21,493 bases of DNA, taken from a virus. The notes beneath the pieces were generated by a model. That model was not told the DNA's origin, made no database searches, and saw only the letters and a list, made by a program, of their open reading frames with translations. Each line of letters opens with the position of its first letter. Position 1 is the first letter of the stretch. The DNA lies in IMG/VR virus record IMGVR_UViG_3300025418_000418, positions 1-21,493 of that record; one strand, written 5' to 3'. The position numbers and the translations under genes are program-made. Shown piece by piece: positions 17,781 through 18,771 of the stretch.

Positions 17781-17811
17781 TTTGGTAGAATAAAATAAGT
17801 TCGTATTTTTG
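17781..17811 (+). promoter_or_regulatory. Near-consensus Bacteroidota promoter for a short RNA
   Basis: TTTG at 17781-17784 and TATTTTTG at 17804-17811 are separated by 19 bp, an exact match to the Bacteroidota primary-sigma pattern TTTG-N19-21-TAnnTTTG. It is the best-formed promoter in the window. Transcription would begin around 17816-17822, just at the left arm of the folded element that follows, and no gene starts downstream for about 400 nt. Confidence 0.72.
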
Positions 17812-17820
17812 TATCAGCAA

Positions 17821-17922
17821 ATCCAATAATGTAGTGCGATATATTATTGGGCATTGCCCGTTCCCTTAAAGAAGGAACATGTAAAGCCCATCAATCGCAC
17901 TTGGTGGGTTTTTTTATTGGAT
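17821..17922 (+). ncRNA. Candidate phage small RNA or attenuator with nested stems
   Basis: Four nested pairings can be drawn. ATCCAATAA 17821-17829 pairs with TTATTGGAT 17914-17922. GTGCGAT 17834-17840 pairs with ATCGCAC 17894-17900. TGGGC 17848-17852 pairs with GCCCA 17886-17890. GTTCC 17860-17864 pairs with GGAAC 17874-17878. A competing intrinsic terminator (17887-17915) uses the 3' strands of the two middle stems: the TGGGC partner lies in its stem and the GTGCGAT partner in its loop. With a consensus promoter directly upstream, this reads as a self-contained transcription unit of about 95-100 nt, either a small RNA or a switchable leader. I could not match it to a known RNA family. All pairings are read by eye from the DNA; no energy calculation was made. 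Confidence 0.6.
17887..17915 (+). terminator. Intrinsic terminator inside the folded RNA element
   Basis: CCCATCAA (17887-17894) pairs with TTGGTGGG (17901-17908), eight pairs with one G-T wobble, around the six-base loop TCGCAC. Seven T residues follow at 17909-17915. It can end either the long virion operon or the short RNA begun at the promoter upstream. Confidence 0.85.
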
Positions 17923-18198
17923 GTAGTCAAAGCAATATGGCTACTGCAACTGAACATAGTCATAGACTATTATAGGTAGATGCATAAGGACCATCCATGG
18001 GAATCTGATATTTAATCTTTTAAATGAATGGTATTCTTTCTAAACTTGTGGTAACCATTCAGCCTCACTTAACGACAACTCATTAACTCGGTGGTAAGAA
18101 TAGCAGGTTATATCTCTATCAGGGGGAGGGGGTATAACTTGCATTTTACTTACCTTCTTTCTCCAATCTATTAATCTGGTGGTAAGTTATAGTCCGCA
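17923..18198 (+). promoter_or_regulatory. Gene-free stretch with serial hairpins before the fibre operon
   Basis: No coding frame longer than about 20 codons from an ATG is found. Pairings seen are: ATAGTC/GACTAT (17956-17961, 17965-17970, three-base loop); GAATGGT/ACCATTC (18026-18032, 18054-18060); GCAGGTTATA/TATAACTTGC (18103-18112, 18133-18142, ten pairs with one wobble, G-rich loop); and ACTTACC/GGTAAGT (18148-18154, 18181-18187). The right arm of the third could instead pair with AAGTTATA at 18185-18192, and CTTACC could pair with GGTAAG at 18093-18098, so alternative folds exist. It may be a long structured leader, a second untranslated RNA, or a cis-acting DNA site. A function cannot be assigned. 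Confidence 0.5.
18076..18186 (+). repeat. Diverged 23-bp direct repeat, two copies
   Basis: Copies lie at 18076-18098 and 18164-18186, 88 bp apart. They share CAA, ATTAA and GGTGGTAAG, and differ at six positions, all C/T exchanges in two matching triplets (CTC in one, TCT in the other). A shorter relative, GTGGTAA, is at 18048-18054. Confidence 0.7.
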
Positions 18199-18216
18199 TT
18201 TTTTGTTATATTTGTA
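18199..18216 (+). promoter_or_regulatory. Promoter of the fibre operon
   Basis: TTTTTTGTTATATTTGTA is identical over 18 bp to 1275-1292 and contains TATATTTG (18207-18214), a full match to the Bacteroidota -7 box. It lies 14 nt before the ATG at 18229. No TTTG is present at the -33 spacing, so a phage or host activator may be needed. Confidence 0.65.
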
Positions 18217-18228
18217 CAAAATATTTCT

Positions 18229-18771
18229 ATGGGTACTTTTGTAGCTTCATATACTGTACAGCAATCAGCTAATGGAACATCCTTAACGATTACAGATACT
18301 TCTAACTATACCGCTTCTAGTGAGCCTAAGAGTGGTTTTAACTGGAGAAGATTATATATTTATTATGTAGATGGTACGCCATTGGTTTTCCCTGCCGGCA
18401 ATACCTCTGGTTATGTGGACTTCCCTATTGGTGGTGCTGATACTATTACTATCACAGGTTTTAGTGCGGATTTGTCTCTAAGTGTTCAGTTAAGTTTAAA
18501 TAAGACAACTCCTATTTCAGGTTCGGTATATACCTCTACCAATGTGGTTACCATGGTTGGTTTTACTAATCAGGCTATTTATAATGCTGCTCAGATTTTG
18601 GCAAGCAATCCTATAAGATTATCAGACCCTGTGTTTAAGGATAGTTTAGTTCAGCTACAAAGAGAAAAGGTTACGGCAGTGAACGCAGGTAGTTATGGAG
18701 ACCAATTCTCCTCTCAGGCAGCCTTATCAAGAGCGGCTACTATTATCTCACAATCAAGTATTAGATTCTAA
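18229..18771 (+). CDS. Fibre-region protein, 180 aa
   Basis: The N-terminal half is beta-rich: FVASYTVQQSANGTSLTITD, then TSNYTASSEPKSGFNWRRLYI, a hydrophobic strand, and an Ile/Thr-rich segment (GADTITITGFSADLSLSVQL). This plan, 'Y.V.QS.NGTSLT.TDTSNY', recurs in small proteins before the tail fibres of Bacteroidota phages. The C-terminal half (about residues 110-180) is helical: NQAIYNAAQILASNPIRL, DPVFKDSLVQLQREKVTAV, GDQFSSQAALSRAATII. It probably attaches a fibre or forms part of the tail periphery. It has its own promoter and overlaps the next gene by 1 nt (TAATG), so translation is likely coupled. The exact function is not known to me. Confidence 0.6.
   Translation: MGTFVASYTVQQSANGTSLTITDTSNYTASSEPKSGFNWRRLYIYYVDGTPLVFPAGNTSGYVDFPIGGADTITITGFSADLSLSVQLSLNKTTPISGSVYTSTNVVTMVGFTNQAIYNAAQILASNPIRLSDPVFKDSLVQLQREKVTAVNAGSYGDQFSSQAALSRAATIISQSSIRF

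Follow-up and report, generated by a model that had tools for sequence, protein, structure and literature searches.

What does the noncoding interval between the virion and the fibre genes of an uncultivated phage encode: a small RNA in its own right, or a switch that sets the transcription of the genes behind it? The question is raised by a 21,493-base IMG/VR virus fragment (the window, meaning the whole stretch of DNA that was analysed), whose structural genes are distantly related to those of Flavobacterium elemo phages and of Cellulophaga phages such as phi40:1. Because of these relatives, the host of the phage is probably a flavobacterium. A preliminary description of the interval had placed there a promoter, a closing inverted repeat, nested stems and an intrinsic terminator that shares strands with two of them, and it had weighed an attenuator against a stand-alone small RNA. 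The features that concern us are the following.

17781-17811, plus strand: Bacteroidota-type promoter, with TTTG at 17781-17784, a 19-nt spacer and TATTTTTG at 17804-17811
17817-17915, plus strand: predicted short RNA of about 100 nt, its 5' end inferred from the promoter and its 3' end from the U-tract
17823-17850, plus strand: 5' hairpin H1, with the loop GUGCGA at 17834-17839
17834-17839 with 17895-17900, plus strand: predicted loop-loop kissing helix
17849-17878, plus strand: variable middle domain, with a GGGC/GCCC hairpin at 17849-17859 and a GUUCC/GGAAC hairpin at 17860-17878
17887-17915, plus strand: terminator hairpin T (stem 17887-17908, loop UCGCAC at 17895-17900) and U-tract (17909-17915)
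17914-17922, plus strand: far arm TTATTGGAT, complementary to the 5' strand of H1 (17821-17829)
17916-18200, plus strand: class II conserved noncoding block, a predicted read-through RNA domain, present in the same place in related loci
18207-18214, plus strand: TATATTTG box shortly 5' of the first fibre-side gene, with a poor -33 box

Homologous loci in uncultivated phages

The comparison covers 20 homologous loci, the window included, all from uncultivated IMG/VR phages and a few of them nearly identical; one more locus, L139, is additional to this set. A protein search led to L001 and L002, both of which carry the element in the same place, and pattern scans for the terminator and the 5' hairpin raised the set to 20, only matches with the 5' hairpin being kept. 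L139 came from a scan that used only the downstream block, and it carries the element too. Most matches of the terminator pattern were ordinary terminators in other phages, L156 and L157 proved to be plain terminators, pattern matches in genome contigs had no matching terminator loop, and two matches of the block scan (L138 and L140) were due to chance.

A covariance model (R1) recovered one strong copy of the element in each of 15 phage records, with scores of 72-104 bits against noise at about 31 bits or below. In two relatives of the structural gene that lie further away it found weak matches to plain terminators but no copy of the element, nor did it find the element in 395 Bacteroidia genomes or anything above noise in four isolated phage relatives. 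A nucleotide search of isolated phages returned no homologue. Furthermore, searching the window and its relatives against Rfam 15, with the ROOL and GOLLD models included and at both the curated threshold and a relaxed E-value, gave nothing credible (the best score in the window was 30.1 bits against a threshold of 60), which agrees with the earlier remark that the element could be matched to no known class.

A conserved unit from promoter to terminator

The promoter pattern is weak when taken alone, with three matches in the window against 1.1 by chance. Both boxes of the Bacteroidota promoter consensus are nevertheless present at the site first proposed for them and remain intact in 16 of the 20 homologous loci, and the -7 box stands 9-11 nt 5' of the first stem or hairpin in every locus. 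The transcript predicted from this promoter is markedly structured: the folding energy of 17816-17925 is -35.0 kcal/mol compared with -23.0 kcal/mol for shuffled sequences (z -3.85), and none of 200 shuffles was as low. The inverted repeat said to close the element, ATCCAATAA at 17821-17829 and TTATTGGAT at 17914-17922, matches at 9 of 9 positions, and the intrinsic terminator lies exactly where it had been placed and is the strongest in the region. The account of the inner stems was correct for the helix that shares strands with the terminator and for the GGGC/GCCC and GTTCC/GGAAC hairpins. It had overlooked a further 5' hairpin, H1.

H1 and T constitute the scaffold that persists in the relatives. 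H1 has the consensus CCRAUAA..GUA[loop]UAY..UUAUYGG over the 20 loci, and 98% of its cells are paired in the 19 relatives of the window. T, whose consensus is CCCAUCAA[loop]UUGGUGGG, has a stem that is 100% paired in the relatives and includes two pairs with double changes. G-U pairs are tolerated in the stems. The middle domain varies freely from 33 to 69 nt, with a GGGx..xCCC pairing that is kept. In 18 of the 20 loci H1 together with T is the minimum-energy fold, before any kissing energy is added, and in these members it is more stable than the purely nested fold. Every member has the same order of promoter, hairpin, terminator and U-tract on one strand. A promoter and a terminator of its own are conserved, as expected of an autonomous small RNA gene, and we hold with high confidence that the element is a conserved RNA gene. 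The idea of a stand-alone small RNA unit running from promoter to terminator, matched by no Rfam family, has gained support.

Covariation between two hairpin loops

The most telling pattern resides in the loops. In each of the 20 loci the loops of H1 and T are equal in size (6/6 or 7/7 nt) and fully Watson-Crick complementary, and they form 12 distinct loop pairs, which do not stand for 12 independent origins since the loci are related. The pair in the window is GUGCGA/UCGCAC; other pairs include GUAGAG/CUCUAC, GGGAAG/CUUCCC, GUACAAG/CUUGUAC and GGUCAAG/CUUGACC, and L139 contributes a 13th, GGGGAU/AUCCCC. When loops were crossed between distinct pairs, 0 of 68 combinations were complementary. 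Compensating changes in related phages had been named as a check on the fold, and they are abundant: in the group with 7-nt loops the kissing helix is paired in 100% of cells, with double changes in 6 of its 7 pairs and none that is one-sided. The whole structure surpassed all 500 shuffles in four of five measures as well as every slid control; in the fifth, a count of further pair types, it does not exceed the shuffles.

Two loci bear on the geometry of this helix. In L116 and L139 the base pair beside the loop is lost and the loop pairs are kept, so that complementarity stops at the loop edge, a pattern that favours loop-loop contact over a continuous nested stem. We therefore regard it as very probable that the loops of H1 and T pair in the folded RNA. 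Note however that the same base pairs could alternatively be formed as an ordinary nested helix. The preliminary description had held that the nested fold and the terminator cannot both form in full. The strands shared by the two are real, and they are exactly the two hairpin loops; the helix that they form is best read as a kissing contact, which is compatible with the terminator because H1 and T make up the minimum-energy fold in nearly all loci.

A conserved block beyond the terminator

The roughly 300 nt that follow the element had been described as lacking a gene start. This is right, as the next ATG is at 18229, yet these nucleotides carry a conserved noncoding block directly 3' of the U-tract, with conservation that begins within a few bases of it. 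The block occurs in two types, class I and class II; L069 carries only part of one type, and the first part differs in L002. Class I is found in eight loci with lengths of 306-331 nt, and its 54 pairs, which include a long-range pseudoknot, are 99.5% paired, with double changes in 27 of the 54. It is located at 10876-11202 in L066 and in seven other loci (alignment A5), has no match in Rfam, and is probably itself a new large phage RNA. Class II, the type of the window, has a covarying hairpin near 18025-18061, but its covariation is limited (5 of 21 pairs) and its folding energy is no better than that of shuffles (z -1.2). Between 18014 and 18200 it also holds a G-rich stretch, GGGGGAGGGGG, and two copies of GGTGGTAAG facing CTTACC. 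Taken alone, the downstream blocks do not reach significance in folding energy, and their support comes from covariation only, strong in class I and weak in class II.

No Bacteroidota promoter was found between terminator and block in any of the 20 loci, and a -7-type box stands 23-32 nt before the next start codon in 13 of them. Since the block starts right after the U-tract without a promoter of its own, some read-through of the terminator seems to be required, and transcription from the first promoter would be the simplest source of block RNA, although the large block might be transcribed from a promoter that escaped recognition. The far arm fits the same picture: it lies just past the U-tract and exists only if transcription passes the terminator, as expected of a read-through RNA. 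It can pair with the 5' strand of H1 in every locus, with a mean z of -2.1 against shuffles over the 20 loci, but the pairing is weak in several members, and there is moderate support for its ability to replace the 3' arm of H1.

Gene contexts of the cassette

The element and its block, here called the cassette, occur in three unrelated gene contexts. In the window, L001, L002 and others the element lies between virion and fibre genes; in L088 the cassette is 5' of an operon encoding an Erf annealing protein, exonuclease VIII and a primase/helicase; and in L078 and its relatives, which belong to a different phage lineage, it is placed between the major capsid and head-tail adaptor genes. L028, L064 and L078 have portal, capsid and head-tail adaptor genes of their own. 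The element is thus not tied to fibre genes, as had already been supposed, and the regulation of those genes is not the general role of the cassette. The distribution suggests that the cassette moves horizontally between unrelated phages. No consistent class of downstream gene emerged of the kind that a cis-acting attenuator or riboswitch would regulate, no open reading frame common to the members could serve as a leader peptide, and ten related loci contained no tRNA.

A proposed two-product model and its alternatives

The explanation that we favour, as the more probable one, is a noncoding RNA cassette of Bacteroidota phages that yields two RNAs, a short one with kissing loops and a long one that arises by read-through. 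It builds on sequence comparison, namely the promoter, the hairpins, the loop complementarity with its double changes, the downstream block and the three contexts; from these we infer transcription, read-through, intra- or intermolecular kissing, and function. The cassette's own promoter would drive an RNA of about 100 nt that is structured from end to end, made up of a hairpin at the 5' end, a variable middle and the terminator hairpin at the 3' end, and whose 5' and terminator loops would pair fully and so lock both ends or join two RNA copies. Part of the transcription would pass the terminator and produce an RNA of about 400-450 nt with a second conserved domain, in which the far arm would pair with the 5' strand of H1 and remodel that hairpin. 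This division, with the short RNA made alone and the block made by read-through, is likewise probable. As a unit of its own, the cassette may act in trans, as a stable regulatory, decoy or scaffold RNA. We consider such a role more likely than the control of one neighbouring gene because the cassette precedes unrelated operons in different phages, a ranking that draws on position independence only. A broader version, which we put forward tentatively, is that of a new class of phage RNA gene with two products, which unrelated phages exchange as one unit and which acts independently of neighbouring genes. In the RNA of about 100 nt the terminator loop would kiss the loop of the 5' hairpin, possibly joining molecules into rings or chains, and the RNA of about 400-450 nt, made by read-through, would have a second structured domain, pseudoknotted in class I.

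One competitor, which appears unlikely without being negligible, is a transcription attenuator, where a nested fold composed of the far arm, the loop helix as a normal stem and a GGG/CCC helix excludes the terminator, and a signal sets the transcription of the block or operon. Several patterns suit it. The GGG after H1 has more than one kept partner, the local CCC or the CCC of the terminator, with compensated flanking letters in most members; the far-arm pairing is maintained; and the interval between terminator and block is free of promoters. Against it, H1 with T is more stable than the nested fold in 18 of the 20 loci, complementarity does not extend past the loop edges, a shared leader peptide is lacking, and the genes downstream are unrelated between contexts. 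Of the original choice between attenuator and small RNA, the stand-alone unit is the better supported; attenuation survives in another form, since the block directly after the terminator lacks a promoter of its own and seems to need some read-through. About equally doubtful, and overlapping with the cassette model, is the proposal that the kissing is intermolecular and that short RNAs form dimers or rings through their two complementary loops. Two such loops, freely changing on one RNA, suit assemblies of this kind, as do the differing interlocking loops of pRNAs (PMC5340915) and the intermolecular kissing of ROOL and GOLLD RNAs (PMC12286853), but the middle domain of 33-69 nt may let both loops meet within one molecule, and the sequences are compatible with either arrangement.

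Explanations without a functional RNA fare worse. An element acting as DNA, for instance as an origin of replication or as a hot spot for recombination where modules meet, with the inverted repeats extruded as cruciforms, would account for the single strong copy per phage record, for its differing position between phages and for fibre modules that seem exchanged beside it in L002. We judge it very improbable: the same-strand order of parts is invariant, G-U pairs are tolerated in the stems, and a complementarity limited to hairpin loops is not expected of a double-stranded site. That an ordinary operon terminator merely adjoins an ordinary promoter, the rest being chance, is scarcely credible: a terminator is indeed expected after the virion operon and the class II block folds no better than shuffles, but 20 homologues, 12 perfectly compensated loop pairs and matched loop sizes contradict it.

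Relation to known RNAs

The pRNA of phi29 is bound to the prohead, and packaging requires it. Like the element, it is small, comes from a phage and has two complementary loops that vary in sequence between relatives, and different phi29-type pRNAs have different interlocking loops (PMC5340915). The element likewise has two complementary loops that change freely; however, in pRNA the pairing is intermolecular, with the loops set around a three-way junction, whereas the element has loops of 6-7 nt, uses the terminator loop as one of the two, and showed no link to packaging. ROOL and GOLLD are likewise structured RNAs carried by phages, with a function that is unknown and with kissing loops that are conserved and act between molecules (PMC12286853). 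They are much longer, the element has no Rfam match, and their usual though not universal location near tRNA islands contrasts with the absence of tRNA from the ten related loci. We claim membership in neither group.

In ColE1 RNA I/RNA II and similar antisense pairs, fully complementary hairpin loops of about 7 nt belong to partners transcribed from opposite strands, whereas both loops of the element lie on one transcript. Lysine and purine riboswitches make intramolecular loop-loop contacts between two hairpins, with several Watson-Crick pairs in the lysine class; in the element, for which Rfam returned no match, one kissing hairpin is the terminator itself. Phage morons are self-contained units with their own promoter and terminator between phage genes, but the element is noncoding and is followed by a further conserved RNA block. 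Few large or kissing-loop RNAs are known from phages (pRNA, ROOL, GOLLD), and most of them lack an explanation. If the cassette model is true, phages of probable flavobacterial hosts carry a compact RNA family with unusually clean loop-loop covariation, whose terminator hairpin doubles as an element of tertiary structure and is linked to a second structured RNA. The model makes exact, testable predictions for loop swaps and offers a new place to seek RNA-based phage functions.

The fibre-side flank

The TATATTTG box at 18207-18214 is likely the promoter of the first fibre-side gene. An exact repeat of 18 bases around it, at 1275-1292 and 18199-18216 of the window, is probably a repeated phage promoter. 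Positions 11220-11900 of L002 are nearly identical to 18020-18700 of the window, a stretch that reaches from the class II block into the fibre-side gene, while the upstream gene of L002 is only about 50% identical to its counterpart. The fibre module shared by the two was probably exchanged recently, with a border inside the noncoding region.
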